The position numbers and the translations under genes were made by a program. The notes beneath the pieces were generated by a model, which made no database searches, had not been told where the DNA came from, and worked only from the letters and a program-made list of their open reading frames with translations. A stretch of 64,000 nucleotides of DNA. Source: Crocinitomicaceae bacterium. Lineage in GTDB: Bacteria > Bacteroidota > Bacteroidia > Flavobacteriales_G > Salibacteraceae. Location of the stretch: the NCBI GenBank assembly GCA_002707155.1, contig PAME01000022.1, forward strand, positions 28,422 to 92,421, read 5' to 3'. This document shows, piece after piece, positions 1,206 through 64,000 of this stretch (positions are counted from its first letter, which is position 1; each line of letters begins with the position of its first letter).

Positions 1206-1224
1206 CCTTAAAAAATAAAGAAGA

Positions 1225-2523
1225 ATGAAAGTAGCTGTAGTTGGCACAGGATACGTTGGTTTAGTAACAGGAACTTGTCTAGCTGAAACTGGAAACCATG
1301 TTATTTGCGTTGATATTGACGCCAAGAAAGTTGAAAAAATGAAAAATGGCCAGGTTCCAATTTATGAGCCGGGTTTAGAGTTATTATTTGAGCGAAATAT
1401 TGCACAAGGAAGACTGAGTTTTACTACTGATTTAAAATCAGCAATTGATGAGTGTTTATATGTATTCTTAGCCTTGCCAACTCCTCCGGGAGAAGACGGG
1501 TCTGCTGATTTATCGTATATTCTTGGAGTTGCTGATGAATTAGGAAAAATAATTACCAACTATAAAGTAATTATAGACAAGAGTACCGTTCCTGTTGGCA
1601 CCGCTGAAAAAGTAATAGCGGCAATTGCTAAAAATGCTCAATGTGAGTTTGATGTGGTTTCTAACCCTGAATTCTTGAGAGAAGGCTTTGCGGTTGATGA
1701 TTTTATGAAACCAGACCGTGTTGTTATTGGGTTATCCTCTGAAAAGGCCAAAAAGCACATGGACGACTTATACAAACCGTTTGTAAGGCAAGGAAATCCA
1801 ATCATTTACATGGATGAAAAATCTGCTGAATTGACAAAATATGCCGCAAATTCATTCTTAGCTACCAAGATTACATTTATGAACGAAATCGCAAATATTT
1901 GCGAAAAAGTTGGAGCTGATGTGGACCAAGTGCGCATGGGCATGGGGTCTGACACTAGAATTGGAAAGCGGTTTTTATTTCCAGGCATTGGTTATGGAGG
2001 AAGCTGTTTTCCAAAAGATGTACAAGCTTTAGTGAAATCTTCGAATGAGGTCGACTACAATTTCCAAATTCTAGATGCGGTAATGGAAGTAAACCAAATT
2101 CAAAAAACTATTTTATTTCCGCGCATCAATGCCTATTTCAACCATGATTTAAAAGGAAAGAAAATTGCAATTTGGGGCCTTGCCTTTAAACCAAATACGG
2201 ATGATATCAGAGAAGCTCCAGCGCTTTATAATATTGATTTATTACTGAAAGCAGGTGCTGAAGTAACCGCATTTGATCCGGAAGCGATGGATAATGTAAA
2301 AGCAATTTATGGCAATAAAATAACCTTTGCTGGTAGTCAAAATGAAGCAATCGAGAATTGTGATGCTTTACTTATTTGCACTGAATGGCAGGTATTTAGA
2401 ACTCCTGATTTTGACCAATTAAGCACTGGGATTTCCTCGAAATCTATTTTTGATGGTCGTAATCTTTACGATATAGAAGAAATGAAAGAAAAAGGTTTTA
2501 ATTATTTTAGCATAGGACGATAA
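1225..2523 (+). CDS. ugd: UDP-glucose 6-dehydrogenase
   Basis: Oxidises UDP-glucose to UDP-glucuronate with two NAD+. The N-terminal Rossmann motif [15 protein letters not shown] (7-21), STVPVGT (120-126), NPEFLREG (148-154) and the catalytic cysteine C261 in [12 protein letters not shown] are present, followed by the UDP-binding C-terminal domain ([16 protein letters not shown]). Length (432 aa) is typical. The stop codon TAA overlaps the ATG of the next gene by one base. That gene is a UDP-glucuronate decarboxylase, so the two would convert UDP-glucose to UDP-xylose in series. Confidence 0.93.
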
Positions 2524-3509
2524 TGGAACAAGTTTTAATAACCGGTGCAGCGGGATTTTTAGGCTCTCACCTTTGTGAGCGATTTTTAGATGAAGGGTAT
2601 CGAGTTATTGGAATGGATAACCTTATCACAGGAAATCTGACCAACATTGAACATTTGATGTTGAACGAGAATTTTGTATTCTCAAATCACGACGTATCTG
2701 ACTTTGTCAATGTTCCCGGAGAACTAAAATATATCCTTCATTTTGCTTCTCCTGCGAGCCCTATAGATTATTTAAAAATACCAATTCAAACCCTGAAAGT
2801 AGGCTCTTTAGGAACTCACAATTTATTAGGCTTAGCTAAGGCTAAAAATGCACGGATTATTGTCGCAAGTACAAGCGAAGTATATGGCGACCCAACGGTT
2901 CATCCTCAGCCTGAAGAATATTGGGGAAATGTTAACCCAGTAGGCCCTCGCGGGGTTTACGACGAGGCTAAACGCTTTCAAGAAGCAATAACAATGGCCT
3001 ATCACAATTTTCATGGTGTAGAAACCAGAATTGTGAGAATCTTTAATACTTATGGCCCTCGAATGCGATTAAATGATGGAAGAGTACTACCCGCATTTAT
3101 TGGTCAGGCGCTAAGAGGTGAGTCTCTCACGGTATTTGGAGATGGTTCACAAACTCGTTCTTTTTGCTATGTCGATGATTTAGTCGAAGGAATTTATCGT
3201 TTACTGCTTTCAGATTACACTCAGCCAATGAATATTGGAAACCCAGATGAAATCACAATAGGGGATTTTGCAGAAGAAATAATAAAATTAACCAATACAG
3301 ATCAGAAGGTTATCTACGAAGATTTGCCTGTAAACGACCCTAAACAAAGACAACCAGACATTACAAAAGCAAAAAATATTTTGGGTTGGGAGCCGAAAGT
3401 TAATAGATCTGAAGGATTAAAAATAACCTATGACTTTTTCAAATCATTGAGTTCAGAAGAATTATACAAAACTGAGCATAATGATTTTACCGATTATATT
3501 AAAAAATAA
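2523..3509 (+). CDS. UDP-glucuronate decarboxylase (UDP-xylose synthase), extended SDR
   Basis: Extended SDR with GAAGFLGSH (8-16) for NAD+ and the catalytic Y146xxxK150 in GVYDEAKR. The run [17 protein letters not shown] and the [19 protein letters not shown] block are characteristic of UDP-glucuronate decarboxylases rather than 4-epimerases or dehydratases. It would make UDP-xylose from the product of the preceding dehydrogenase, to which it is coupled by a one-base TAATG overlap. 328 aa is full length for the soluble bacterial form. Cytoplasmic. Confidence 0.88.
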
Positions 3510-3510
3510 A

Positions 3511-4083
3511 ATGGAATATTTTAGTCATGAAACTGCTGTAATTGATGTAGGTTGTCAAATTGGCGAAGGAGCCAAAATTTGGCATTTTTCTCATATAATG
3601 AAGGATTGTATTATCGGCGAAAATTGCAATATTGGGCAGAATTGTGTGATTTCTCCTGACGTAATTCTAGGTCAAAATGTAAAGATCCAGAATAATGTTT
3701 CGATATATACGGGAGTTATTTGCGAGGATGATGTTTTTCTTGGCCCTTCAATGGTATTTACCAATGTTAACAATCCCAGAAGTGCGGTAAATAGAAGGGG
3801 GCAATACGAAAAGACCCTTGTAAAGAAAGGAGCCTCAATTGGGGCAAATGCAACGGTAGTTTGTGGAAACGACATTGGGAAGTTTGCTTTTATTGGAGCT
3901 GGCTCAGTAGTAACAAAAGCAGTGCCTGATTATGCACTTGTAGTTGGTAATCCCTCTAAACAAATCGGCTGGATGAGTGAATATGGTTCTCGATTAGTCT
4001 TCGATGAAAATGGAGAGGCAACTTGTGAAGAATCAAAAGAAAAATATGAATTAATTGACGGTACTGTAAAGAAATTAAACTAA
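3511..4083 (+). CDS. WbpD/WlbB-like UDP-sugar N-acetyltransferase (left-handed beta-helix)
   Basis: Hexapeptide-repeat acyltransferase. Repeats run through most of the chain (IGEGAKIWHF, IIGENCNIGQNCVI, ILGQNVKIQNNVSI, FLGPSMVFTNVNNPRS, FIGAGSVVTKAVPDYALVVGNP). The IWHFSH and GPSMVFTNVxNPR signatures match WbpD/WlbB, which acetylate the 3-amino group of UDP-2-acetamido-3-amino-uronic acid. The ORF track starts at 3481, inside the previous gene. I chose the ATG at 3511, one base after the previous stop, because homologues begin at this sequence. Partner of the aminotransferase at 75. Confidence 0.87.
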   Translation: MEYFSHETAVIDVGCQIGEGAKIWHFSHIMKDCIIGENCNIGQNCVISPDVILGQNVKIQNNVSIYTGVICEDDVFLGPSMVFTNVNNPRSAVNRRGQYEKTLVKKGASIGANATVVCGNDIGKFAFIGAGSVVTKAVPDYALVVGNPSKQIGWMSEYGSRLVFDENGEATCEESKEKYELIDGTVKKLN

Positions 4084-4084
4084 G

Positions 4085-5380
4085 ATGATTTTAGAAAAAA
4101 TAATAAACAAGCAAAGTAAATTAGGAGTTATTGGTCTTGGCTATGTTGGACTGCCAATAGCATTAGAATTTGCTCGAAAAATTAAAGTTGTTGGTTTTGA
4201 CATTAACGCTGAAAGAGTTGAGTTAATGAAAAACAATATTGACCCAAGTGAGGAGCTAACAGCAAAAGATTTTGAAGGGTGTGATATTGAATTTACTCAT
4301 AAACTAGAGGATTTAGAAGACGTAAACTTCTTTATCGTTGCCGTTCCAACCCCTATAGACGAATACAATCAACCCAACTTAAAACCGCTTTTAGATGCAT
4401 CCAAAACAGTTGGAAAGGTTCTTAAAAAGGGCGACTATGTCGTTTTTGAATCTACTGTTTATCCAGGTTGTACTGAAGATGACTGTGTTCCAGTTTTGGA
4501 GAAACATTCCGGGTTAAAGTTTATTGAAGACTTCAAAGTGGGATATAGCCCGGAAAGAATTAATCCAGGAGATAAAGAACATACGATTACTAAAATCTTA
4601 AAAGTAGTTTCTGGTTGCGATGATGAATCTTTAGATGTTATTTCTAAAGTCTATGAATTAATAATTGAACCAGGCGTTCATCGAGCGTCATCGATTAAGG
4701 TAGCCGAAGCAGCTAAAATTATTGAAAACACTCAACGTGATTTGAACATAGCTTTAATGAATGAGCTATCTATTATTTTTAACAGAATCGGCATCAACAC
4801 TTTTGAAGTATTAGAAGCTGCGGGAACAAAATGGAACTTCCTTCCATTTAAACCCGGTTTGGTAGGTGGCCATTGTATTGGTGTAGATCCATATTATTTG
4901 ACATTTAAAGCTGAAGGGGTTGGATATCATGCTCGAGTAATTAACTCAGGTAGGTATGTAAATGATAGTATGGGCTTCTATGTCGCTAAACAAACAGTGA
5001 AAAGAATACTAGCAAAAGGAAAAAATATCAGTGGTTCAAGAATACTCTTAATGGGAGCTACTTTCAAAGAAAATGTAAGTGACATTAGAAATTCAAAAGT
5101 TTGTGACGTTGTCAAAGAGCTTCAATCTTACAGAGTTGATGTTGATGTCGTGGATCCTAATGCCGATTCAAAAGAACTTTTTCATGAATACCACTTTGGA
5201 CTTGCTGAAAATGGAATTTCTGGAAAATATGATGCTGTTATTTTAGCTGTCAATCACGATGAATATGTAGCATTGGATGAGCGTTATTTTAAAGGAATAA
5301 TGTCAGAAGGTGGATTATTTGTTGACGTAAAAGGCGTTTTTCAAGGAAAAATTAAAGAATTAGATTACTGGTCATTATAA
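4085..5380 (+). CDS. UDP-N-acetylhexosamine 6-dehydrogenase, WbpA/TviB/WecC type
   Basis: Nucleotide-sugar dehydrogenase with GVIGLGYVGLPIA (14-26), VAVPTP (86-90) and catalytic C264 in VGGHCIGVDPYYL, the cysteine context of N-acetylhexosamine dehydrogenases (WbpA, TviB, WecC) rather than UDP-glucose dehydrogenase. It would oxidise C6 of UDP-GlcNAc or UDP-GalNAc to the uronic acid. Full length (431 aa). It directly follows the acetyltransferase and directly precedes rfbB, consistent with one transcript. It would supply the substrate on which the WbpE- and WbpD-like enzymes act after a missing 3-oxidation step. Confidence 0.88.
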   Translation: MILEKIINKQSKLGVIGLGYVGLPIALEFARKIKVVGFDINAERVELMKNNIDPSEELTAKDFEGCDIEFTHKLEDLEDVNFFIVAVPTPIDEYNQPNLKPLLDASKTVGKVLKKGDYVVFESTVYPGCTEDDCVPVLEKHSGLKFIEDFKVGYSPERINPGDKEHTITKILKVVSGCDDESLDVISKVYELIIEPGVHRASSIKVAEAAKIIENTQRDLNIALMNELSIIFNRIGINTFEVLEAAGTKWNFLPFKPGLVGGHCIGVDPYYLTFKAEGVGYHARVINSGRYVNDSMGFYVAKQTVKRILAKGKNISGSRILLMGATFKENVSDIRNSKVCDVVKELQSYRVDVDVVDPNADSKELFHEYHFGLAENGISGKYDAVILAVNHDEYVALDERYFKGIMSEGGLFVDVKGVFQGKIKELDYWSL

Positions 5381-6436
5381 ATGAAGGACTTTAAGAAAAA
5401 CATCCTTATTACTGGAGGCGCAGGTTTTATTGGCTCCCATCTAGTGCGTTTGCTGGTTAACAAATACCCTGAATATAGAATTATAAACTTTGACGCACTT
5501 ACTTATGCAGGAAATCTGGAAAATCTGCGTGACATTGAAAATGCTTCCAATTATGAATTTGTAAAAGGGAATATTTGTTCCGTAAGCGATATTGAAAATG
5601 TCTTTAAGAACTTTAATATTGATTCTATAATTCATTTAGCCGCAGAATCTCATGTTGATAGGTCCATTGAAAACCCCAATATATTCGTTGAAACAAATAT
5701 CATTGGTACTGTTAATTTATTGAATTCATGCATCAAAAATTGGGAAGCACCATTCAGTAGTAATCTTTTCTATCACATATCAACGGACGAAGTTTATGGT
5801 AGCCTTGGAGACACAGGGTTTTTTACAGAAGAGACATCATACGACCCGAAAAGTCCTTACAGCGCCTCAAAAGCGGCTTCAAATCATTTTGTAAGAGCTT
5901 TCTCTAATACCTACAAACTTCCAACTAAAATATCTAATTGCTCTAATAACTATGGCCCAAATCAATTTCCAGAAAAACTGATTCCACTTTGTATCAATAA
6001 TATCAAAAACAACAAACCTTTACCTATTTATGGTGAGGGTCTAAATATAAGAGACTGGTTATACGTTGTTGATCATGCAGAGGCAATTGATAAAATTTTC
6101 CATACCGGTACGCTTAATTCAACATACAATATTGGAGGACTTAACGAATGGACAAATATTGCACTTGTTATGGAGCTTTGTGCTGTTATGGATTCCAAGC
6201 TTGGCAGAGCACCAGGAACTTCAGCAAAGCTTATTACTTATGTCGAAGACAGAAAGGGTCATGATATGCGCTATGCTATTGATGCTGACAAACTAACTAG
6301 AGAATTAAAATGGGCCCCAAAAGAAACATTTGAGACGGGTATTAGGTCTACTGTTAACTGGTACTTAGAGAATGAATCTTGGCTTGGTGCTGTTGTATCT
6401 GGCAGTTATCAAGACTATCACCAGAAAATGTACTGA
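5381..6436 (+). CDS. rfbB: dTDP-glucose 4,6-dehydratase
   Basis: Converts dTDP-glucose to dTDP-4-keto-6-deoxyglucose, the entry to rhamnose and other deoxysugars. GGAGFIGSH (12-20), the diagnostic STDEVYG (134-140, catalytic Asp and Glu), and YSASKA with Y160xxxK164 are all intact, as is NNYGPxQFPEKLIP. 351 aa is standard. The start follows immediately on the preceding stop. No rfbA, rfbC or rfbD lies nearby, so the next step must be encoded elsewhere. It is the last gene before a strong bidirectional terminator. Confidence 0.93.
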   Translation: MKDFKKNILITGGAGFIGSHLVRLLVNKYPEYRIINFDALTYAGNLENLRDIENASNYEFVKGNICSVSDIENVFKNFNIDSIIHLAAESHVDRSIENPNIFVETNIIGTVNLLNSCIKNWEAPFSSNLFYHISTDEVYGSLGDTGFFTEETSYDPKSPYSASKAASNHFVRAFSNTYKLPTKISNCSNNYGPNQFPEKLIPLCINNIKNNKPLPIYGEGLNIRDWLYVVDHAEAIDKIFHTGTLNSTYNIGGLNEWTNIALVMELCAVMDSKLGRAPGTSAKLITYVEDRKGHDMRYAIDADKLTRELKWAPKETFETGIRSTVNWYLENESWLGAVVSGSYQDYHQKMY

Positions 6437-6461
6437 TAACGCTATTATTTAGTGTTTGGCA

Positions 6462-6496
6462 TAAAAAAAGGGAAGTAAATACTTCCCTTTTTTGTT
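6462..6496. terminator. Bidirectional intrinsic terminator between rfbB and gldN
   Basis: Perfect hairpin GGGAAGT-aaat-ACTTCCC (6470-6487), flanked by an A tract on the left and a T tract on the right, so it can terminate both the + strand sugar operon and the - strand gldKLMN operon. Confidence 0.85.
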
Positions 6497-6513
6497 GTTA
6501 TTTTCCTTGGACA

Positions 6514-7368
6514 TTAAAAATGCCACAAATCATGTTCGTAATTGAACATTTCATTTTGAATTTTTTCAGCTTCCAGAAGAGCATCTAATCCAGTTTTATA
6601 TTCACTAATTTGCCTATCGTAAACATTTGAAGTTTTAATTATCGTAGACTCGAACTGACGTTTCCAAAAAACATCATCATATGTTCTTCGTTCAGCATCG
6701 TTTTTTCTATTAAATACTTCACTATTCGCAAAAACGTAACGTGCTTCAGGGAAGTATATCCAAAATAAATCCTGAAGAGTAGGGTTACCATCAGGGCCTT
6801 CAACTTCTGCCATTGGTTTAATTCCAATTATTCGCACATCCATTACCGAACGTTGTCTTTCAAAGAACCACTCTTCCTTTACTTCATAAAATTTAATACG
6901 AGCAGAACGCAAGGTATCGTATACAGTTTGTGTTCCGGTTACATCTCCGAATTCATCAAACAATTCAACCTCAGTCTCCGAAATCATTCTTTTCAGAACT
7001 TCATCTGCTGTATAAGCTCTAGTGAACTCATCATCCGGATCTGTAGGAGGTCCAGGGTCATAAGCGGTCATAGTTCCGTCCTCTATTAACCCTTCTTTTA
7101 TATAGTCAAACAAGTTCTTACGGCCTTGAGCAGGTTCTTCAGGAAAGTAAAATACTTGATTCTGCTTTTTACGCAAATCAATCCTTCTCCATACTCGCTT
7201 TTGCCACATAACATCTGCTTGCCGAAGATTAGTATAGGGTATAATCTTTCTTGATGGTGTATTTTCATTAACTACAATACCATCTAATACCATACTTTGC
7301 TGAGCACTTAAGGTAATACCTGAAGTGAACAAAACAACCACTACACTTATTTTAAGCAGATTATTCAT
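6514..7368 (-). CDS. gldN: Gliding motility / type IX secretion protein GldN (PorN)
   Basis: Periplasmic component that, with GldK, forms the ring under the outer membrane in the type IX secretion system. It has a signal peptide (residues 1-22, ending TLSAQQ) and the PorN/GldN core with a tryptophan-rich N-terminal part (DVMWQKRVWRRIDL), WFFERQRSVMDVRIIGI and WIYFPEARY. Length 284 aa fits the family. It is the last gene of the porP-gldK-gldL-gldM-gldN order known from Porphyromonas and Flavobacterium, six bases after gldM. Confidence 0.92.
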   Translation of the reverse strand: MNNLLKISVVVVLFTSGITLSAQQSMVLDGIVVNENTPSRKIIPYTNLRQADVMWQKRVWRRIDLRKKQNQVFYFPEEPAQGRKNLFDYIKEGLIEDGTMTAYDPGPPTDPDDEFTRAYTADEVLKRMISETEVELFDEFGDVTGTQTVYDTLRSARIKFYEVKEEWFFERQRSVMDVRIIGIKPMAEVEGPDGNPTLQDLFWIYFPEARYVFANSEVFNRKNDAERRTYDDVFWKRQFESTIIKTSNVYDRQISEYKTGLDALLEAEKIQNEMFNYEHDLWHF

Positions 7369-7374
7369 GATCTA

Positions 7375-9027
7375 TTATTTTACTTGAATAATTATATTAC
7401 CATCTAAAGGTCGAGGAGAAGAACCAGGCTTATCCATTTGTGCTACTACTTTCTGGAAGATAGCTGTTTGTCCTGGTTTCATAGTTTTTAATACACTCTT
7501 CATTTCACCAGTCAATCTATTTCCTCGTGCTGTGTATACTGCAGATTTACCTCCAACACTTACAAACATTTCAAAGCTATTAACCTTATATCTCAATTCA
7601 AACAGGAAGTCATCAAGCTTCGCAGTGATAAACTGACCCGTAAGAAGCTTACTCTTCTTCATGTCAACTGAACCTGTTTCGTTATTAAAATAAGGAATAG
7701 GCTTTGGAACAGTTTTTAAACGATATTCAATAGCTGGGTAAGAGTTTTTGACTCCGTCAACATTTGAACTTACCGTAATCCTAACCACTTTATCTTTTGA
7801 TTTCGGATTAGGAATAACCTCATACTTACCTTGTTCTTTGCTTTTAGGAACAACACGGCAGCCACCACCAGCAATTGTCATTGTCAAATTCAGAGAAGCA
7901 ACACCAGAAACAGATATATCAACTGGATTCTCCAAACCTTTGTAAAAAACATTCATCTTGGTAGGGGAAACAACCAAACTAGGTTTTGCAACCATGTATT
8001 TATGATCGAACTTATACGCAGCCCATTTTCCATTAGGTTTCAAAATCTTGATAATACCGCCCCATGTTTGCTCTCCTAGAGTAGAGGTTTTTACCCCATA
8101 AGTAGGTATTCCTCTATTTTCAAATTTTACTGCTGAGGTATCCCCATCCTTAACTTCAGGTTGATCCCCTGTTGTGTCAACTACACCGATAACGAGCTTA
8201 GGGTTTTTCGTCGTGCTATAAGCTGCAACAATTACGTCCGCTTTAAATGAATCTCCTTGGGTAATGTATGTTCCATTGTGCGGTATGACTTTTACAGCCA
8301 AGGTATCAAATGAAAAGTCATCTGCACCAATTTCAGACATTAGTTCTTTTAAAGCATCTGCCTCTGAATTTCTGACTGACGCTTGAAAACGAGTTAAATT
8401 TGTCACAGTGGCAGCTAGCGGTAAATGATTGAAATTTCCGATTTCCCATTCAACTAACATACCATGTTCCTTCATTTGCCCCAATGGAATTTTCATTTCG
8501 GCTACTAATCCCTTTTCTAAAATAAAACTCTCCAAATGCTCATTGAAGACACCTATCTTAGACTTTAAACTTAATGCACTATACTCCTGGTCTGCACCTA
8601 ATGGATTGTTCAAATCAGGACCAATCATAATTTGAGCACCAACATCTTGGTTGTCCTTACTATGACAATGTTCAATTGAAAATGCAGAATCTGGTGCATC
8701 ATCCGGCAGTTGATCCGCAGTTTGAACCAGCTTCCTTTTAATCTTTTCAATAAGCTCTACAATCTCATCAGCATTTTCTTTCAATTCTTTTGCATGCTCA
8801 TAAAACTCTCCCACTTTGGCAGGATCATCAGCCATTTTACGACCAAAAACATCGTAAGTCTGATTAATCTTACTTTCAAAGTTTTCAGTTGTTCTTTCTA
8901 AACCTTCATTAATAATTAAAAATGATTGCAGAATCTCTTTCGATACATTCATGGCAAGCATACAAAGCAATACCAGATACATCAAATTGATCATCTTCTG
9001 CCTTGGTTCCATATCACCTAACGACAT
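7375..9027 (-). CDS. gldM: Gliding motility / type IX secretion motor protein GldM (PorM)
   Basis: Inner-membrane protein whose single N-terminal helix (about 14-34, MINLMYLVLLCMLAMNV) packs with GldL to make the proton-powered T9SS/gliding motor, while its large periplasmic domains reach the GldK/GldN ring. The start MSLGDMEPRQKMINLMYLVLLCMLAMNVSKEIL is nearly invariant in the family, and the remaining ~500 residues have the expected beta-rich domains. 550 aa is slightly longer than many homologues. Sits between gldL and gldN on one operon. Confidence 0.93.
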   Translation of the reverse strand: MSLGDMEPRQKMINLMYLVLLCMLAMNVSKEILQSFLIINEGLERTTENFESKINQTYDVFGRKMADDPAKVGEFYEHAKELKENADEIVELIEKIKRKLVQTADQLPDDAPDSAFSIEHCHSKDNQDVGAQIMIGPDLNNPLGADQEYSALSLKSKIGVFNEHLESFILEKGLVAEMKIPLGQMKEHGMLVEWEIGNFNHLPLAATVTNLTRFQASVRNSEADALKELMSEIGADDFSFDTLAVKVIPHNGTYITQGDSFKADVIVAAYSTTKNPKLVIGVVDTTGDQPEVKDGDTSAVKFENRGIPTYGVKTSTLGEQTWGGIIKILKPNGKWAAYKFDHKYMVAKPSLVVSPTKMNVFYKGLENPVDISVSGVASLNLTMTIAGGGCRVVPKSKEQGKYEVIPNPKSKDKVVRITVSSNVDGVKNSYPAIEYRLKTVPKPIPYFNNETGSVDMKKSKLLTGQFITAKLDDFLFELRYKVNSFEMFVSVGGKSAVYTARGNRLTGEMKSVLKTMKPGQTAIFQKVVAQMDKPGSSPRPLDGNIIIQVK

Positions 9028-54959: not shown

Positions 54960-56801
54960 ATGTGTGGAATTGTAGGTTATATCGGCTCTAAAGAAGCTTA
55001 TCCAATAATTATAAAAGGCCTTAAGCGATTAGAATACAGAGGCTACGATAGTGCAGGCGTTGCATTACTCGAAGATGCCAAAATAAATTTATACAAAAAA
55101 CAAGGAAAGGTTTCAAAGCTTGTTGAGTTTGCTGAAAATAAAAACAAAAACGGGCATTTAGGAATAGGGCATACAAGATGGGCTACTCATGGAGAACCAA
55201 ATGATGTGAATTCTCATCCACATCTTTCAAACAGTGGCAATTTAGTCATGATTCACAATGGTATTATTGAGAATTATGCCGCAATAAAAGCTGAACTAGA
55301 AAAACGGGGATATGTTTTTCACAGTGAAACTGACACAGAAGTACTTCTTAACTTAATAGAAGATATCCATGTGAATGAAAAGGTATCATTGGGAGCCGCA
55401 CTTCGCAAAGCACTTAATCATGTAATAGGCGCTTATGCTATTGCTTTAATTGATAAAAATGAGCCCAATAAATTATACGCAGCCAGAAAAAGTAGTCCTT
55501 TAGTTGTTGGAATTGGTGACAACGAATATTTCGTTGCCTCTGACGCTTCTCCAATTATTGAGTACACCAAAAATGTAATGTACTTAGACGATGAAGAGAT
55601 TGCGATTTTAGAGCCCGGTAAAGAAATCGATCTTTTCACGATTCAGAATAAGGAGAAGACTCCATACATTCAAGAATTAGAAATTCAATTGGAAGCAATT
55701 GAAAAAGGCGGTTACGACCACTTCATGCTCAAAGAAATTTATGAGCAGCCTAAGTCTATAAGAGATAGCATGCGGGGCCGTTTAAACCTATCAAAGGGAA
55801 TTGTGAATCTTGGAGGAATTCAAGATTACGAACAAGCCCTTTTGAATGCTAATAGAATTGTCATAGTTGCTTGTGGAACGAGTTGGCATGCTGGGTTAGT
55901 AGGCGAATATTTATTTGAAGACTTTGCACGCATTCCAGTCGAAGTAGAGTATGCAAGTGAATTCAGATATAGAAATCCAGTTATTTATGAAAATGATATA
56001 GTAATTGCAATTTCTCAATCCGGTGAAACGGCTGATACCTTGGCAGCAATAGAGCTAGCTAAATCAAAAGGGGCAACCGTTTTTGGCGTTTGTAATGTGG
56101 TAGGATCTTCTATCTCAAGGGCCACACATGCTGGTTCTTATACGCATGCCGGGCCTGAAATTGGCGTAGCCAGCACTAAGGCGTTTACTGCGCAAATAAC
56201 TGTTTTAACCTTAATGGCCCTCAGTATTGGCCATAAAAAAGGAACCGTTCCTGCTTCAAGGTATAGATCATTATTGAATGAAATTAATTCAATTCCTAAA
56301 TTAGTAGAACGCTGCTTAAAAACCGAAGCCGACATTAAAGAAATATCAGCTCGATTTCAAAATGCAAGCAACTTCTTATATTTAGGTAGAGGATATTCTT
56401 TCCCTGTTGCATTAGAAGGAGCTTTGAAATTAAAAGAGATTTCCTATATCCATGCTGAAGGCTATCCAGCGGCAGAAATGAAGCATGGTCCAATAGCTTT
56501 AATTACTAAAGAAATGCCAGTTGTTGTTATCGCAACTAAAGGTCCTTCATATGAAAAAGTTGTAAGTAATATTCAAGAAGTTAAAGCGCGTAAAGGTGTT
56601 GTAATTGCAATAACTACCGAAGGTGATGTAGATGTAAAAGCTATGGCTGATTACACTATTGAAATTCCGGAGATTGAAGAAGCGCTTGTGCCTTTTCTTT
56701 CAGTTGTACCTTTGCAACTGTTGTCTTACCATATTGCCGTTCTTAGAGGATGTAATGTGGACCAGCCTAGGAATCTTGCGAAATCTGTAACCGTGGAGTA
56801 A
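54960..56801 (+). CDS. glmS: Glutamine--fructose-6-phosphate aminotransferase (isomerising)
   Basis: Makes glucosamine 6-phosphate, first step to UDP-GlcNAc. The N-terminal nucleophile Cys2 follows Met1 (MCGIVGYIG), with HTRWATHG and the glutaminase loop; two SIS domains carry VACGTSWHAGL and ISQSGETADT. It ends with the canonical DQPRNLAKSVTVE, so the gene is complete despite the island inserted behind it. 613 aa. Its last 102 bases are also read on the opposite strand as the end of the large serine recombinase. Confidence 0.97.
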   Translation: MCGIVGYIGSKEAYPIIIKGLKRLEYRGYDSAGVALLEDAKINLYKKQGKVSKLVEFAENKNKNGHLGIGHTRWATHGEPNDVNSHPHLSNSGNLVMIHNGIIENYAAIKAELEKRGYVFHSETDTEVLLNLIEDIHVNEKVSLGAALRKALNHVIGAYAIALIDKNEPNKLYAARKSSPLVVGIGDNEYFVASDASPIIEYTKNVMYLDDEEIAILEPGKEIDLFTIQNKEKTPYIQELEIQLEAIEKGGYDHFMLKEIYEQPKSIRDSMRGRLNLSKGIVNLGGIQDYEQALLNANRIVIVACGTSWHAGLVGEYLFEDFARIPVEVEYASEFRYRNPVIYENDIVIAISQSGETADTLAAIELAKSKGATVFGVCNVVGSSISRATHAGSYTHAGPEIGVASTKAFTAQITVLTLMALSIGHKKGTVPASRYRSLLNEINSIPKLVERCLKTEADIKEISARFQNASNFLYLGRGYSFPVALEGALKLKEISYIHAEGYPAAEMKHGPIALITKEMPVVVIATKGPSYEKVVSNIQEVKARKGVVIAITTEGDVDVKAMADYTIEIPEIEEALVPFLSVVPLQLLSYHIAVLRGCNVDQPRNLAKSVTVE

Positions 56802-58439
56802 TTTGTGGAGGGTGAGAGGGGTGTTCAATTTATCCACACCCTCTTTAATTTCATACTTTTTTCTTCCTTTTTTATCCCTAGAAAAACTTCCATTTTTGTT
56901 TTTTGAATAGACAATTTTATCATTTATTATAGGAATTCTGAATCCGATATTTAGTTTGTGTTGTTTGGATTCTTCAGAATAATCAAGACATCTAACCTCG
57001 TGAATATATTCACTCAAAACCTTCTTTCTCTCCTTCATAGATGAAATTTCACGAAGGTTCTCACCTCTTTTGAAGTGAACATCCAACCAGTCAATCCATC
57101 TCTGTTTCTCTCTTATATTATCTATTTTAAACTTCTCTTTTGAAATCTTTTCAGACAACTCATTTGACTTTCCTGTATTAGATTCACACAGAATTTCATA
57201 AGTTTCTTTTACCATCTCATTTGAGTAATATCTCTTATCTAATTCTAATCTTCTATCGTGTAGTGATTCTAAATCCTTAGTTAATCTTTTGATTCTATTA
57301 TTTATACTTCTAATTGAATATCTACTTCGATTCCCAATTAATTCCTCTTTTGTTTTTTGTCTGATAGTTTTAGAATCTTTCCAAACATCTACAAAATGAT
57401 TCCAAATGATTTCATCGGTTTCATATTGTCTCATAGATTTTGTTACTGAACAATTTGTGTGATTACATCTTTTCTTATATACTCTTTGTCTATGACTACA
57501 AGAGTATAGAGGGTTTTTTCTTGACTTCTTAACTCCTTCAATTTTCATTGGTGTCCCATCTCCACATTTAAGAATCCCTTTTAGTAAACCATCGTGTTTT
57601 ACATTTGATTTTTGACCTTTTTTTCTTGAAACTTTCATCTTAACAGAATCAAAAATTTTCTTATCAACTAACTTAGGACATTCATTCACTAAGTCTCCGT
57701 AGGTATCTATTCCAATGTAATTTTTATTATTTAAAATATTGACGATAGTTTCAAGTGGAAATACCATATTATTTGATATCTCATATCTCGGAGGTGGAAT
57801 ATTATTTATCAGTAATTCATGTTGAATCTGAGGAGTTGTTTTACCATCATCATACATTCTATAAATCTTCTCAACCCAATCCCTTGTGTCTTCTCTAGGA
57901 ACAAGAGATTTACCCTCTAATTTATATCCGAATGGTGGGTCTCCTTTCATATACTTACCCTCTGAAAACAATCTTCTTTTGGAACGATTACTTTTTCTAA
58001 CTTGAGTTTTAATTTGGTTTTGATTCACCTTAGTAATTATTGTATCTACTAAATCTGTAACCCAATCCCATTCCTTTGGTGTCTTTGATGTCCCAACATA
58101 TAAACTCACTCCATTTTTTTTCATCTCAACATGAATTAATTGTTGATCCATGTCATATCTTGTTAGTCTTGTTTCATCATCAATCCAAACATTTTTTACT
58201 ACCCCATCTTGAATCCCATCCATTAAATCAGAGAATTTTGGTCTTACCTCTAAATAGGGTTTCATTCCACTCCCTTGTTCTGTAATTACACAGGGTTCAA
58301 ATCCAATCGATTTACAAAATTGAATTCCTCTTTCTTTTTGAACATCTAATGAACTTCCACCTTTCTCTTGTCCACTTGTACTAACACGACAATATATGTA
58401 CATAGTTCTATTTGGATTATCCTTAAATCTTAATTTCAT
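56700..58439 (-). CDS. Large serine recombinase (integrase type)
   Basis: Site-specific serine recombinase. The resolvase domain has YxRVST (MYIYCRVSTSGQEKGG, nucleophile S20) and WIDDETRLTR with R91 and R94. A Recombinase (pfam07508-type) domain follows (about 167-250, GDPPFGYKLEGKSLVPREDTRDWVEKIYRMYDDGKTTPQI), then a zinc ribbon with C292, C314, C325 and C330, and a long coiled coil (about 370-450) as in phage and SCC recombinases. The last 33 codons lie antisense in glmS, so residues from about 547 on are probably not ancestral recombinase sequence. 579 aa. Start overlaps the upstream small recombinase by four bases (ATGA). Likely moves the island into and out of the glmS end. Confidence 0.9.
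   Translation of the reverse strand: MKLRFKDNPNRTMYIYCRVSTSGQEKGGSSLDVQKERGIQFCKSIGFEPCVITEQGSGMKPYLEVRPKFSDLMDGIQDGVVKNVWIDDETRLTRYDMDQQLIHVEMKKNGVSLYVGTSKTPKEWDWVTDLVDTIITKVNQNQIKTQVRKSNRSKRRLFSEGKYMKGDPPFGYKLEGKSLVPREDTRDWVEKIYRMYDDGKTTPQIQHELLINNIPPPRYEISNNMVFPLETIVNILNNKNYIGIDTYGDLVNECPKLVDKKIFDSVKMKVSRKKGQKSNVKHDGLLKGILKCGDGTPMKIEGVKKSRKNPLYSCSHRQRVYKKRCNHTNCSVTKSMRQYETDEIIWNHFVDVWKDSKTIRQKTKEELIGNRSRYSIRSINNRIKRLTKDLESLHDRRLELDKRYYSNEMVKETYEILCESNTGKSNELSEKISKEKFKIDNIREKQRWIDWLDVHFKRGENLREISSMKERKKVLSEYIHEVRCLDYSEESKQHKLNIGFRIPIINDKIVYSKNKNGSFSRDKKGRKKYEIKEGVDKLNTPLTLHKLLHGYRFRKIPRLVHITSSKNGNMVRQQLQRYN
56815..56850. terminator. Hairpin between glmS and the recombinase gene
   Basis: AGAGGGGTGT ... 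ACACCCTCT (one bulged G, 11-base loop) followed by TTAATTT. Placed 13 bases after the glmS stop, where a terminator is expected; it lies inside the recombinase reading frame on the other strand. Confidence 0.5.
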
Positions 58440-59056
58440 ACTAATTCTAATTCTTTACTGAACACCTTTCTCACTTTTGTTATTGTTTTTGGTGAACAAC
58501 TGATTCTTCCAATTATATCTCTATTTGATTTCCCCATTCTTAATAGGTTCAATATCTTCTTAGTTTGTGGTTTGGTTTTGAATATTAAATCTGATTCTTT
58601 AGAACCTTCTTTTCTACCTAACTTCCCACCATTGAGAACATATTGTTTTCTACCCATCTCAGTAATCTCTAAGATTCTTTCTCTTTCCATTTCATAAACT
58701 GAAGAAAGGATTGAAGTAACTATATTCCACATTGGATTCTTATCTCCATTAGGAGTATGAGATTCAATACCAATGTTTCTAATCTTTATAGTTACTCCTT
58801 TCTCAATTAAGAAATCTAATGTTAAAATTGAATCTTTCAATGTTCTACCACATCTACTTAAATCCTCAAACACTACCATCTTCACTTTATCTTCTTCAAC
58901 TAATTGAATAAGTTCAGAACCACCCTTTCTTTTATTGAAAGGGATTTTACCACTAACCCCAAAATCATTAATGGTTAAATCGTAATTGTTCTTATCCAAT
59001 TTGAATCTTTCACCCTTTTGGTTAATCGTTGATGTTCTATTGTATTTTATTATCAT
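58436..59056 (-). CDS. Small serine recombinase (resolvase/invertase type)
   Basis: Resolvase/invertase family: YNRTSTINQ gives nucleophile S9, the DFGVSGKIPFNKRKGGSELIQLV segment and VVFEDLSRCGRTLKDSI (D65, R68, R71) complete the active site. EMERERILEITEMGRKQYVLNGGKLGRKEGS is the dimer helix and hinge of Hin/Gin-like enzymes, followed by a C-terminal helix-turn-helix (LLRMGKSNRDIIGRISCSPKTITKVRKVF). 206 aa. Its stop overlaps the large recombinase's ATG (ATGA), so the two are made together. It could be a second recombinase subunit, a directionality or resolution factor, or an invertase; sequence cannot decide. Confidence 0.9.
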   Translation of the reverse strand: MIIKYNRTSTINQKGERFKLDKNNYDLTINDFGVSGKIPFNKRKGGSELIQLVEEDKVKMVVFEDLSRCGRTLKDSILTLDFLIEKGVTIKIRNIGIESHTPNGDKNPMWNIVTSILSSVYEMERERILEITEMGRKQYVLNGGKLGRKEGSKESDLIFKTKPQTKKILNLLRMGKSNRDIIGRISCSPKTITKVRKVFSKELELV

Positions 59057-59238
59057 AATTGTTTATTTAGTGATTCCCTGAAATTCCAACAATTAAAAGT
59101 ACTAAATTAACCTGTTATAACCAAGTTTTAATGAATACTTTTTATTTATGAATTGAAGGGAAGTGGGAAATCCATAAAACTTCCCTTCATATTCATCTAC
59201 CAATCTATGTACTTCGGATATTGGACATACATAATATT
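59057..59238. other. Intergenic region with a strong hairpin
   Basis: GAAGGGAAGT (59155-59164) and ACTTCCCTTC (59179-59188) form a perfect ten-base stem that extends to TGAA/TTCA with one mismatch, loop 14 bases. Between two - strand genes, so probably a transcription terminator or a processing site, although no T run follows on the - strand. It could also be a recombinase-related site. No promoter recognised for the recombinase pair. Confidence 0.5.
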
Positions 59239-59661
59239 TTAATTTGTTCCGTATATCATTTTTGAGATTTGTTCATTCCTTTCTTTGAGTGTTTCAATTT
59301 GATATTCCATATCACCATCAAATTTTCCACTTTCCATTTCTCTTTCTAATTCTTCAATTTCATTAAGATTTTGTGAATGTTCATCTTCAAACTCAATGAT
59401 TTCTAAATCATCGTAACTATCATGTTCTAACTCTTTTATTTTCTCATTAATATTACCAATACATTGTATAATGTATGATTCATCAACTCTTAATCGTTGT
59501 ATACACTCTCTCAAATATTCAGTATCTGTTATGTCTTCCATATCTGTGTACATTATCTCAAATGTGTTCATATCATCAATTAAATAATCAATGTTTTTCC
59601 CTTTTTGTTGAAGTTGGTTAATATTCTTAACTACATTCTTTTTTGTTTTTACTTTACTCAT
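59239..59661 (-). CDS. Small acidic coiled-coil protein, unknown function
   Basis: 140 aa, start MSKVKTKKNVVKNINQLQQKGK. A basic N-terminal 20 residues is followed by a long acidic helical region (ITDTEYLRECIQRLRVDESYIIQCIGNINEKIKELEHD... NLNEIEELEREMESGKFDGDMEYQIETLKERNEQISKMIY) likely to form coiled coils. No signal, membrane segment or recognised domain. On the same strand as and upstream of the recombinase pair. Candidate accessory or structural partner of the recombinases, or a regulator of the divergent gene; both are guesses. Confidence 0.65.
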   Translation of the reverse strand: MSKVKTKKNVVKNINQLQQKGKNIDYLIDDMNTFEIMYTDMEDITDTEYLRECIQRLRVDESYIIQCIGNINEKIKELEHDSYDDLEIIEFEDEHSQNLNEIEELEREMESGKFDGDMEYQIETLKERNEQISKMIYGTN

Positions 59662-59689
59662 TTTTATTGTTTTTAGTGGGTTAATTGTT

Positions 59690-59834
59690 GAGGTTTAACC
59701 CGTATACCTCATAGATTTATACTTAGTGTTGTTAAATGGGGTATCTCCCCTTAATCAACATACTTAATATACGAAATAGTTGTATCTTTTAAAAGTATTT
59801 ACTATTTTAGATACAACTATAAAGTATATCTAAA
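59690..59834. promoter_or_regulatory. Divergent regulatory region with palindromic operator-like sites
   Basis: Separates the - strand module from the + strand defence genes. A perfect 12-base inverted repeat ATAGTTGTATCT (59776-59787) / AGATACAACTAT (59809-59820) ends 14 bases before the next ATG. A GGGG-tatct-CCCC hairpin (59738-59750) and GAGGT/ACCTC (about 59690-59710) are further in. The placement of the 12-base repeat over the expected promoter of the 59835 gene suggests an operator. Its regulator is unknown. Confidence 0.55.
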
Positions 59835-60341
59835 ATGTTATCAAAAAAAGGAAGAAAGAAAACCCATAAATTCACTAAAGAGGATTTTACAAAACTATCA
59901 ACCGAAGAACGAAGGATGAGGGGTAGAATCTCAACTCTTAGAAGGATGATTAAGAAAAGGGAATCTGATATTGAAGAACTGATGAAACCCATTCAAAAGA
60001 AACGAAAAGAGATAAAGAATTTTAAAGATGATTTATCAGAGATTACAGAAACCTTTAAGAATTCAAACTACAATTTCCCAAAGTTTAGAGTAGAGGGATA
60101 TACCATTGTGAAAGGTAAAGATGAAAATGGGGATGATAAATACCACTCATATTACAGGGGTGTATGGTATGTAAACTCAAAGAAGAAACAAATGTATTTA
60201 GGTTCTGAAAAATCAGTATGGGAGAAAGTGAAAACGAAGTTCCCTCATTCATTTAAGAAGGATGAATCTATTGAAGAATTCTTTCTTAATGAACTTCAAA
60301 TGAAGTTTTGGAAAGATGAATATGAAGATTTTAAGAAATAG
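59835..60341 (+). CDS. Basic protein of unknown function preceding the hsd operon
   Basis: 168 aa, very rich in Lys, Arg and Glu. Residues 1-75 form a basic helical/coiled-coil region (LSKKGRKKTHKFTKEDFTKLSTEERRMRGRISTLRRMIKKRESDIEELMKPIQKKRKEIKNFKDD). The second half is a compact domain with aromatic strands, GYTIVKGKDENGDDKYHSYYRGVWYVNSKKKQMYLGSEKSVWEKVKTKF. This strand-strand-strand-helix order recalls arm-type DNA-binding domains of integrases, but that is only a resemblance. No known domain recognised. About 90 bases before hsdM on the same strand and controlled by the palindromic region upstream. Confidence 0.7.
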   Translation: MLSKKGRKKTHKFTKEDFTKLSTEERRMRGRISTLRRMIKKRESDIEELMKPIQKKRKEIKNFKDDLSEITETFKNSNYNFPKFRVEGYTIVKGKDENGDDKYHSYYRGVWYVNSKKKQMYLGSEKSVWEKVKTKFPHSFKKDESIEEFFLNELQMKFWKDEYEDFKK

Positions 60342-60375
60342 AGTTTCTAGAGAGTAAACCCCATTAACCTGAATA

Positions 60376-60406
60376 TTGTTAAATCATAAAAAATCCCGTA
60401 ATTTAC
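60376..60406 (+). promoter_or_regulatory. Possible hsdM promoter
   Basis: TTG (60376-60378), 20 bases, then TAATTTAC (60399-60406), two bases from TAnnTTTG. 24 bases before the hsdM ATG. Confidence 0.35.
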
Positions 60407-60429
60407 AAATCTATAATTGAATAAAATAT

Positions 60430-62142
60430 ATGTCAAACCATAACGAAATATCATCATTTATTTGGAATGTCTGTGATGATGTACTGAGAGGATTATTTAA
60501 ACAACACGAATACGGAGATGTAATACTACCTTTTTTAGTTCTAAGAAGGTTAGATTGTGTTATTGAACCGAAGAAGGATGAAATAATTGAACTCTACAAT
60601 GAGTTGAAAGATGAGGTTGACCCAACCCCAATTATAAAAAAACAAACAGGATTAAAATTCTTTAATCATTCTAACTACGATTTACAAAGATTGAAGGGAG
60701 ACCCAAATGGATTAAAGGTTAACTTCCCTAACTACATAAGTGGTTTCTCTCAAAATGTATTTGAGATTTTAGAAAACTTCCAATTAGAAAAACCAGTTGA
60801 AAAACTCCTTAAAAACAACAAACTATATCTTTTAGTAGATAAGTTCACTGAGATAGAATTACACCCTAATAAAGTAGATAATCATACGATGGGACAAGTA
60901 TTTGAAGAACTTCTTCGTAAGTTTTCAGAGATGTCTAACGAAACAAGTGGAGAACACTACACACCTCGTGATGTGGTTAAACTTTTAGTGTCTATGGTGT
61001 TTTCAGAGAATACGGAACGACTTGATGGAGTTGGGATAATAAGATCGATTTATGACCCCTGTTCTGGAACTGGAGGTATATTGTCCGTTGGTAAAGATTG
61101 GGTAGAAACAAATATTAAAAATGATGTAAGATTAAACTTGTTTGGTCAGGAATTAAATCCTCATACTTTTTCAATTTGTAAATCTGATATGTTGATTTCA
61201 GGTGAAAACCCTGAGAATATTAAATTGGGTTCATCACTTTCTAATGATCACTTTGAAGGAAAGAAGTTTGATTATATGATTACTAATCCACCTTATGGGG
61301 TTAGTTGGAAAGGGGAAAAAGAATTTATTAATAATGAAAAATCAAATCCAAACGGAAGATTTTCAGAAGGAGTTCCTCGATCATCTGATGGTCAATTGTT
61401 ATTCCTTCAACATATGATTTCTAAAATGAAGGAGGATGGGTCTCGAATTGGTGTAGTGTTTAATGGATCTCCAATGTTTACCGGAGATTCAGGAAGTGGG
61501 GAAAGTGATATAAGAAAATGGATAATCGAAAAAGACTGGTTAGAGTCTGTTGTTAGGTTACCTGAACAACTATTTTTCAATACGGGAATAACAACATATA
61601 TATGGATCATTAATAATAAAAAGAAAGAAAGTCGAAAAGGGAAAATTCAACTTATTGATGGATCATCCTTTTGTTCGAGTCTAAGGAAAAATCTTGGAAA
61701 CAAAAGGTATTTCATTTCGGACAATCAAATTGATGATCTTATTGACATTTACACGAATAATGAGAATGGAGAGTTCTGTAAAATTTATGATAACGACTTT
61801 TTTGGATATACCAAAGTAACAATTGAACAACCCATAATTGAAGATGGTGAAATAGTTACTAAAAAAGATGGAAGTCCTAAACCCGACACCTCTAAACGTG
61901 ATTATGAAAGAATTCCATTTTCAATTGACATTGATGAGTTTTTTCAAAAAGAAGTTAAACCTTTTTTACCTAATTCTTGGATTGATAAATCAAAAAATAT
62001 AACTGGTTATGAAATAAATTTAACAAAATACTTTTATCAATTTAAGAGACCTAGAACTCTTTCTGATATACATTCAGATTTAGAGAAGTTAGAAGAGTTA
62101 AGTAAAGGAGTTTACAATAAAATTGTAAGTGATGAAGTATAA
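60430..62142 (+). CDS. hsdM: Type I restriction-modification system DNA methyltransferase subunit
   Basis: N6-adenine methyltransferase of a type I system. The HsdM N-terminal helical domain (SSFIWNVCDDVLRGLFKQHEYGDVILPFLVLRRLDC) leads to SGEHYTPRDVVKLLV (173-187), SAM motif I DPCSGTGGIL (209-218) and catalytic N286PPY289. A C-terminal part rich in lysine contacts HsdS. 570 aa, complete. It modifies one adenine on each strand of the bipartite site set by HsdS and protects the island carrier. Overlaps hsdS by 11 bases. Confidence 0.94.
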   Translation: MSNHNEISSFIWNVCDDVLRGLFKQHEYGDVILPFLVLRRLDCVIEPKKDEIIELYNELKDEVDPTPIIKKQTGLKFFNHSNYDLQRLKGDPNGLKVNFPNYISGFSQNVFEILENFQLEKPVEKLLKNNKLYLLVDKFTEIELHPNKVDNHTMGQVFEELLRKFSEMSNETSGEHYTPRDVVKLLVSMVFSENTERLDGVGIIRSIYDPCSGTGGILSVGKDWVETNIKNDVRLNLFGQELNPHTFSICKSDMLISGENPENIKLGSSLSNDHFEGKKFDYMITNPPYGVSWKGEKEFINNEKSNPNGRFSEGVPRSSDGQLLFLQHMISKMKEDGSRIGVVFNGSPMFTGDSGSGESDIRKWIIEKDWLESVVRLPEQLFFNTGITTYIWIINNKKKESRKGKIQLIDGSSFCSSLRKNLGNKRYFISDNQIDDLIDIYTNNENGEFCKIYDNDFFGYTKVTIEQPIIEDGEIVTKKDGSPKPDTSKRDYERIPFSIDIDEFFQKEVKPFLPNSWIDKSKNITGYEINLTKYFYQFKRPRTLSDIHSDLEKLEELSKGVYNKIVSDEV

Positions 62143-63409
62143 TACCTTAAAAAAAACTGATGTTAGTTGGGTTGAGAATATTCCAAGTCATTGGGAATCG
62201 ACTAAGTTAAAGTATGTATGTGATATTTCTAAAAACTCCATTAGTACTAAAGAATTTGAAGATATTGAATTAATACATTACTCTATTCCAAACGTTCAGA
62301 AAAATGGAGAAGGTATAAAAGAGTCAGGAAATGATATTGATAGTTCAAAACAACTTTTATTTGGTGGTGAAGTCTTGTTATCAAAATTAAATCCCAGAAA
62401 ATCTACTGTTTGTATTGTGAAAAAAAATGATGAAATGATAGTTGGTTCTGGTGAATTCTTAACATTTAAACCAAAGAATGTCAACACAAAATTTATTTAT
62501 TATTTTTTTAAAAACCCTCGTTTTACAGAGTTTCTTGATTCCTGTGTAAAATCAGTTACTAGGAGTCATCAAAGAGTTAAACCTGATATTGTATACAATA
62601 GTTGGATTTATCTTCCTCCTCAAAGAGAACAAGAATTGATTGTCAACTACTTGAATAAAAAAATAAATGGAATCGACACGTTGATAAAGTTTAAAGAAGA
62701 TAAAATAGGTTTATTAAGAGAAAACTTAAATTCAACAATCTATAATTCCGTAACCAAAGGAGTTAGAGTTGGTAGGAGGTTTATAAAGGTAGATTCAAGT
62801 TTTATTGAGTCAATTCCTGAATCATGGGTTTTGAAAAGAAATAAGTATTTTACAATTCCCAGAAAGAATAAATCTGAAAATGGTTCCGAAGAATTATTGT
62901 CTGTTTCAGAATATGAGGGAGTTATTCCTAGAAAATCTATTCGTGAGGGTGAAGAACATCTTTCTAGATCCGAGTCCTTAATAGGATATCTCAAAGTCAA
63001 CAAAGGAGATTTAGTAAACAATATTATGTTGATGTGGAAAAGAGGTCTTGGAGTAAGTGATTATGAAGGAATAGTTTCTCCATCATACTCTGTATTCTCA
63101 TTTAAAAATTCAATCCCAATGTACTTTCATTATTTGTTTAGAACCGATTTATACACATCAGAGTTTAGAAAACATTCAACAGGAGTGATTGATTCAAGAT
63201 TAAGGTTGTATGATGATGTTTTTGGTTCGTTAAAGTCTCATTTTCCTCCAATTGAGGAACAAATTGAAATTGTTGAATTTATAGAAAATTTTAAAAAGGA
63301 AACGGAATCCTTAATAGATATAGAACAGAAAAAGATTGATAAACTTTTGGAGTATAAAGAATCATTGATTTCCAATGTTGTTTCAGGAGTAAAAAAGATA
63401 TTTACATGA
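62132..63409 (+). CDS. hsdS: Type I restriction-modification specificity subunit
   Basis: DNA-recognition subunit with the standard two target-recognition domains. TRD1 covers about 1-170 (WVENIPSHWESTKLKYVCDIS ... PPQREQELIVNYLNKKI) followed by the first conserved helix. TRD2 covers about 215-385 (FIESIPESWVLKRNKYFTIPRKNK ... PPIEEQIEIVEFIENF) followed by the second. The two helical regions end in the parallel LLREN and LLEYKESLISNVVSG sequences, so it is complete and not a half-subunit. 425 aa. The track's start is a GTG at 62129; ATG at 62132 is preferred. Stop overlaps the hsdR ATG (ATGA). Confidence 0.92.
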   Translation: MKYNTLKKTDVSWVENIPSHWESTKLKYVCDISKNSISTKEFEDIELIHYSIPNVQKNGEGIKESGNDIDSSKQLLFGGEVLLSKLNPRKSTVCIVKKNDEMIVGSGEFLTFKPKNVNTKFIYYFFKNPRFTEFLDSCVKSVTRSHQRVKPDIVYNSWIYLPPQREQELIVNYLNKKINGIDTLIKFKEDKIGLLRENLNSTIYNSVTKGVRVGRRFIKVDSSFIESIPESWVLKRNKYFTIPRKNKSENGSEELLSVSEYEGVIPRKSIREGEEHLSRSESLIGYLKVNKGDLVNNIMLMWKRGLGVSDYEGIVSPSYSVFSFKNSIPMYFHYLFRTDLYTSEFRKHSTGVIDSRLRLYDDVFGSLKSHFPPIEEQIEIVEFIENFKKETESLIDIEQKKIDKLLEYKESLISNVVSGVKKIFT

Positions 63410-64000
63410 ATAGACCAAACGAAGAACGTTTCGAAAAACATATAGAACAAACCTTAATTCAACATGGGTTTACTTCTCGTTTATATACCGAGTACGATAG
63501 AAATCAATGTCAACTTCAAGAGGAACTCATAGAGTTTATTAAATCTACTCAAAAGGAAGAGTATGATAAACTACACAAACAATTTGATACTTCAACGGAT
63601 AAACAACTGAGTAAGATTGTAAATGAACAAATCTCTAAAAGAGGAGTTATTGATGTTCTCAGAAAAGGAGTTAGTACAAGAGGATGTTCTTTTGACATGG
63701 TGTATTTTGAACCTAAAAGTGGTTTGAATCCTGAACATCAATCTAAATTTGAAAAGAATCGTTTTGTATCAGTTCGTCAACTTCACTATTCTAATAAAAA
63801 TGAGAATTCTATTGATTTGGTATTGTTCTTAAACGGAATACCAATTATTACAATGGAGTTGAAAAATCAACTCACAGGACAAAACATAAAGAACTCAGAG
63901 AACCAATATAAATACGATAGAAACCCATCAGGAGAACCCCTGTTACAGTTTAAAAGGTGTTTGGTACATTTCTGTGTAGATAACGATAAAGTATCTATGA
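63406..64000 (+). CDS. hsdR: Type I restriction endonuclease subunit, N-terminal part (cut by window edge)
   Basis: Not in the ORF track because it is open at the right edge. It starts at ATG 63406, overlapping the hsdS stop (ATGA), and reads on without a stop for 198 codons. MNRPNEERFEKHIEQTLIQHGF is a typical HsdR opening, and the PD-(D/E)xK nuclease core appears around residues 135-155 (SIDLVLFLNGIPIITMELKNQLTG: Asp, then E-x-K), followed by NQYKYDRNPSGEPLLQFKRCLVHFCVDNDKV. The DEAD-box motor lies beyond the window. Confidence 0.92.
   Translation, partial: MNRPNEERFEKHIEQTLIQHGFTSRLYTEYDRNQCQLQEELIEFIKSTQKEEYDKLHKQFDTSTDKQLSKIVNEQISKRGVIDVLRKGVSTRGCSFDMVYFEPKSGLNPEHQSKFEKNRFVSVRQLHYSNKNENSIDLVLFLNGIPIITMELKNQLTGQNIKNSENQYKYDRNPSGEPLLQFKRCLVHFCVDNDKVSM

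Follow-up and report, generated by a model that had tools for sequence, protein, structure and literature searches.

The window, which is the whole stretch of DNA analysed here (64 kb; positions 28422-92421 of contig C18 of genome G000), ends where the contig itself stops, contig position 92421 being window position 64000. Its right-hand part contains an intact glmS gene, the final bases of which are the integration site of an element encoding a large serine recombinase (LSR), a small serine recombinase and a set of cargo genes. The features are as follows, in window positions:

54960..56801, plus strand: glmS, 613 aa, the intact recipient gene (open reading frame; TIGR01135, 828.7 bits)
56787..56801, no strand: attL core GTAACCGTGGAGTAA, codons V-T-V-E-stop of glmS
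56802..56850, no strand: element half of attL (TTTGTGGAGGGTGAGAGG...); a near-identical scar without recombinase lies behind glmS in genome G028
56700-58439, minus strand: LSR, 579 aa (Pfam Resolvase PF00239, Recombinase PF07508 and Zn_ribbon_recom PF13408, all above cut-off)
56802..58439, minus strand: element-encoded part of the LSR, 546 codons with the catalytic, recombinase, zinc-ribbon and coiled-coil parts
56700..56801, minus strand: host-encoded tail of the LSR, 33 codons and a stop from the antisense strand of glmS
58436-59056, minus strand: small serine recombinase, 206 aa, resolvase/invertase type (PF00239, E 7.8e-17; DNA invertase phrog_125)
59239..59661, minus strand: small acidic protein, function not recognised (no Pfam family above cut-off, no PADLOC family)
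59835..60341, plus strand: small coiled-coil protein, function not recognised (coiled-coil Pfam matches, all below cut-off)
60430..62142, plus strand: hsdM, type I methyltransferase (PF02384, PF12161; PADLOC MTase_I, E 7e-236)
62129..63409, plus strand: hsdS, type I specificity subunit (PF01420; PADLOC Specificity_I, E 1e-64)
63406..64000, plus strand: hsdR, N-terminal part, cut by the contig end (PF04313)

This gene content had been read by an initial annotation of the same DNA as an intact glmS, a large and a small serine recombinase, two small genes and the start of an hsdM-hsdS-hsdR set, and open reading frames, Pfam, PADLOC and TIGR01135 confirm it. The LSR had been placed immediately behind glmS. 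The two genes do adjoin, but the LSR ends inside glmS, its last 33 codons being antisense glmS, so that its frame overlaps the target gene by 102 bp. The LSR matches the integrase family phrog_95 (E 3.7e-57), and its gene shares 4 bp with that of the small recombinase. The G+C content of the island is 30%, against 37% in the remaining window. The restriction-modification set is of type I, with hsdM and hsdS complete and hsdR partial at the contig end; a search of the whole G000 assembly for the remainder of hsdR found no other fragment. A tRNA gene as the target was considered and rejected, there being no tRNA in the 64-kb window.

Element ends and occurrence at glmS

An empty glmS, with no recombinase beside it, is found in three genomes of the same genus (G001-G003). 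The post-glmS order in these genomes is a lipoprotein-like gene of 66-68 codons followed by fixed host genes. Comparison of gene order locates the corresponding host flank of G000 on another contig, C20, where the 15 bases that close glmS recur in diverged form as ATTACAGTAGAATAG; this copy forms the right end of the island, and the host lipoprotein gene starts directly after it. A direct DNA search for a repeat of the glmS end, covering the window contig and the rest of G000, found none; this search missed the C20 core because the two core copies have diverged. The 6.6 kb preceding the C20 core have a G+C content of 30.5% against 36% and are rich in element parts. The crossover most likely falls within the AC shared by the cores, at 56790-56791, and glmS is not disrupted, as its last codons are replaced by equivalent ones from the element. 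The initial annotation had proposed looking for a duplicate of the glmS end to the right of position 64000 and had regarded a recombinase fixed beside glmS in close relatives as evidence against mobility. The duplicate is present, on C20, contig C18 having no sequence beyond that position, and the three empty relatives mean that the recombinase is not a fixed neighbour.

The element of G000 is read from these two contigs, C18 and C20, whose ends do not meet. Contig C20 carries cores at positions 301, 2796 and 6588, and the intervals hold parts of different element types, so that the G000 island is a composite array. One element of this array carries the type I restriction genes. Tandem composite arrays at a single glmS are found both in G000 (the three C20 cores and the one at glmS) and in G027.

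The element type also occupies glmS in further genera and families. More specifically, G012 (CAJQLE010000003, uncultured Flavobacteriales), which belongs to another genus, has a whole element of 8088 bp at glmS on a single contig, with a second core copy 8088 bp on, followed by host flank. Its LSR is 61% and its small recombinase 48% identical to those of G000. L090 (NYSL01, Cryomorphaceae bacterium) and G027 (CALSRO01, Flavobacteriales) have elements of opposite polarity, in which the LSR body is distal and points in the same direction as glmS. Similar cores flank both element ends in G000 (on two contigs), G012, G027 and L090, and a small recombinase accompanies the LSR in all four; a larger one, of 265 aa, is found on the viral contig L097. 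The other element end lies at the glmS ends of G018, G019 (two copies), G029, G032, G040 and G343 and, in decayed form, of G059, while G028 has a short scar alone, of the window's element-end type. In an order-level count of 42 genomes, element ends were present at the glmS end in 8 and a scar in 1.

Near the far end, G000, G012, G027 and G032 encode an HTH_17 protein together with another small protein; a related HTH_17 protein in L090 has a match to an excisionase PHROG. A replication protein of the HUH type (PF23343) is recognised above cut-off on C20 and slightly below it in L090, which suggests that the excised circle may undergo rolling-circle replication. A recognised defence system, namely the restriction genes, is seen in the G000 copy only, and the cargo proteins tested from G012, L090 and G027 gave no convincing defence match. 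The description of the element in the initial annotation as a defence cassette by nature is therefore not supported.

G019 (contig C1; L068, reverse-strand positions 837-8086) has an intact glmS followed downstream, at a distance of about 5 kb, by another 3' piece of the gene, 155 codons long; the same 230-bp element end lies behind each, with an IS-like transposase region in between. In G027 (C5:48638-50466) glmS contains frameshifts and stop codons though the gene should be essential, and these are more likely assembly errors than real.

The LSR gene across the att core

The most unusual feature of these elements, which is absent from the initial annotation, is that attP lies inside the LSR gene. 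When the two element ends are joined in silico to form a circle, the LSR frame runs through the core and gains a conserved HTH-like C-terminal domain in four of four elements (G000, G012, L090 and G027), an in-frame extension of approximately 90-150 residues. The joined proteins are 656 aa long in G000 (with the C20 end), 665 aa in G012, about 690 aa in L090 and 732 aa in G027, the last reading frame counting for less because of the glmS frameshifts on its contig.

At all eight element ends tested, the C-terminal stretch has an open frame of 93-167 codons in the phase of the LSR, whereas the other two phases are closed within 15 codons; first-order Markov shuffles attain that open length with p <= 0.0042. 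Over the 110 codons from the core, the stretches of C20 and G012 differ with a dN of 0.056 and a dS of 0.489, and the changes fall at codon positions 1/2/3 in the proportion 11/2/24; between G027 and G032 the corresponding counts are 15/1/35. This codon-position pattern, together with the low dN relative to dS, indicates translation in the LSR phase under purifying selection. The constraint on the frame begins right at the core, and no methionine codon precedes the HTH core in the C-terminal stretch. TTG codons are found near the core in L090 and C20, and could permit separate translation of the stretch.

Two contigs carry the LSR end and the domain side by side. On L133, an uncut form, the sequence continues in frame from an LSR-like end, via a diverged core, into the domain; the contig starts inside the LSR, so that the LSR body lies outside it. 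On the viral contig L097 an attP of the unintegrated type is present, its core lying within a 12-bp inverted repeat; the LSR and the domain are located on either side of it, in different frames separated by a run of nine A. Runs of 9-10 A just before attP occur in the LSR genes of L097 (3500-3580), L071 and L090, and in L097 the LSR would have to shift frame at this run in order to continue into the C-terminal domain. The idea that such A9-10 runs cause programmed frameshifting was considered for L097, G027 and L090 and was not adopted, as L090 and G027 are in frame without one. Beside the uncut recombinase end, L133 (862-14643) also encodes a long series of consecutive secreted-type paralogues, most of them with the motif TVPANKVWK.

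The extra domains of different elements align to one another, and Pfam gives only sub-threshold matches for them, in most cases with HTH families or else with the HTH-like region of PF07508. The LSR of the window was modelled with AF2 from five sequences, giving a low-confidence model (mean pLDDT 61.7) that was used for domain order and for the disordered tail. In this model residues 548-579 have a pLDDT below 50 and form a predicted unstructured tail, and Foldseek ranks complete serine integrases of about 535 aa highest; the truncated LSR as modelled keeps the canonical LSR layout. Because the 546 element-encoded residues span the canonical parts, what remains after integration is a canonical LSR, its tail encoded by the flank, from which the extra domain has been stripped. 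A sequence search of solved structures with the 665-aa joined protein gave no match. Among the matches listed for phages and plasmids, the LSRs were 21-28% identical with a query coverage of at most 73%, and none exceeded 80%.

As a control, 396 genomes of the phylum were searched with a profile, which recovered two distant LSRs, of 564 and 570 aa, both in comM/yifB. The elements in question (G730:C1:1372222-1413647, about 40 kb, and G600:C32:97408-110599, about 12 kb) cut comM/yifB in two. At the opposite ends of both elements no in-frame C-terminal domain was found, there being no long open frame in the continuation. Thus, the split is neither general to LSRs nor an artefact of the joining procedure.

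Mechanism, alternatives and relation to known systems

The duplicated att core, the empty relatives and the recurrence in other genera and families support the earlier proposal that a serine-recombinase element type targets the 3' end of glmS. Taken with the reading frames described above, they make it very probable that these copies belong to one family of integrative elements, directed to the last glmS codons by serine recombination and carrying attP inside the recombinase gene. In the free circle, such an element would encode a full-length LSR with the extra C-terminal HTH-like domain, and this form, made from the circle only, would perform integration between attP and attB. Integration would cut the LSR gene, leaving a canonical recombinase with a tail from flanking DNA at one end and stranding the extra domain, with no ATG before its HTH core, at the opposite end of the element. 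The full-length LSR could then not be made again, and the outcome would be either lock-in or an excision form partnered by the small recombinase and by the excisionase-like HTH_17 protein. Those members that carry the HUH replication protein may replicate as circles after excision. It is tentatively suggested that the extra DNA-binding domain is present in the circle state only, and that its removal on integration either turns an integrating enzyme into an excising one or shuts it off.

A simpler account is that of an ordinary serine-integrase island, in which the LSR gene has its 3' end right beside attP, the HTH stretch being a separate gene that starts at the core by chance. The LSR body alone does resemble a complete LSR, and the distant comM LSRs stop before their att sites at 564-570 aa without a domain at the other end. 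Against this account, the frame is the same in four of four joined circles, it is constrained from the core onward, the C-terminal stretch is without a methionine codon ahead of the HTH core, and one uncut contig, L133, is continuous in frame; a separate gene is thus quite unlikely. That a defence island lies by chance beside a fixed neighbour of glmS, and is not mobile, is scarcely credible. The hsdM-hsdS-hsdR genes are what such a reading would start from, but it is contradicted by the lack of a recombinase at glmS in three same-genus genomes, by the core duplication and low G+C content, and by the presence of the same recombinase pair with other cargo at the glmS of another genus.

Within the model of an LSR gene split by integration, two fates of the integrated copy may be envisaged. 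The truncated LSR may be the excision form and the long LSR the integration form, with no rescue in trans needed. This is a genuine possibility, if a tentative one, from the sequence features that bear on it: truncation spares the catalytic, recombinase, zinc-ribbon and coiled-coil regions of the LSR, and a conserved excisionase-like HTH_17 protein is encoded at the far end, yet most copies are decayed or composite, as would be expected if integration were usually final. Alternatively, by analogy with the SSV-type integrases, integration may be suicidal, the integrated copy being dead and mobilised only by an incoming related element. Different element types stand in tandem at a single glmS, which indicates that related elements do reach occupied sites, and remnants and the scar are common. 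The retained LSR fragment, however, unlike that of SSV integrases, holds the catalytic domain and need not be dead, and this fate is about as likely as the first.

Split, or suicidal, integrases have been described as exclusively archaeal and of the tyrosine type, with the catalytic domain in the C-terminal fragment and both fragments considered inactive (PMC8371274). The glmS elements resemble those of SSV type (SSV1, pTN3, pT26-2) in having attP inside the integrase gene, so that integration splits the gene between the two ends and the circle restores it. They differ in using a serine recombinase, as judged from Pfam and fold, in occurring in bacteria (Flavobacteriales, Cryomorphaceae), and in that the retained part of the LSR keeps the catalytic domain and only the extra HTH-like domain is lost. 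With the large serine integrases (SPbeta, phiC31, Bxb1, TnpX; phrog_95) they share the domain layout of the body, a short common core and inverted-repeat attP arms, but they add a C-terminal domain past attP, a paired small serine recombinase and the glmS target. The comM/yifB elements have distantly related LSR bodies, one of which reads into the target gene; there, in contrast, insertion divides the target gene, and the opposite end has no in-frame C-terminal domain. The nearest bacterial parallel is found in phages with integration-dependent immunity, such as the MabB/MabK prophages of M. abscessus, in which attP lies inside the repressor gene and integration exchanges the C-terminus and switches behaviour (PMC8092301). 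In both cases the C-terminus of an element protein is exchanged on integration, although the protein truncated is a repressor in the phages and a recombinase here.

In the open-licence literature searched, neither a serine recombinase gene split by integration nor a serine-recombinase island at glmS was found, and the novelty of the serine-type split integrase is provisional. A bacterial serine version, apparently independently evolved, would make the placement of attP within the recombinase gene a general solution. Since the part that remains is a canonical serine integrase, the system would offer a direct test of direction control by an added domain, in enzymes that are widely used in genome engineering.

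Staphylococcal SCC elements encode two neighbouring serine recombinases (ccrA/ccrB), insert at the 3' end of a conserved gene (rlmH) that is kept intact, form composite arrays and may carry hsd genes as cargo. The initial annotation had drawn this comparison, and it is apt for the neighbouring recombinase pair at an intact gene 3' end, as well as for the composite arrays and the hsd cargo; it fails in that the glmS elements have one large and one small recombinase, another target and a recombinase gene split by integration. No NCBIfam Ccr match was obtained for the window recombinases at E <= 0.001, and the small recombinase of L090 scores 21 bits against CcrB, for which the cut-off is 900.

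Tn7 inserts downstream of glmS, at attTn7, by means of a DDE/TnsABCD machinery. The conserved glmS 3' end serves as a safe site in both cases, but in the glmS elements a serine recombinase crosses over inside the last codons of the gene. Among the genes read from the island, whose middle is unassembled in G000, none was recognised as TnsB, TnsA, TnsC or TnsD. The glmS elements would be a second mobile element type, unrelated to Tn7, with the glmS end as a safe landing site. A further locus in G000 (C21; L014:8830-12975), which is not at glmS, encodes another small serine recombinase, of the type found in G027, together with the HTH_17 and small-protein module; it has no recognisable LSR and is probably an element remnant at another site.
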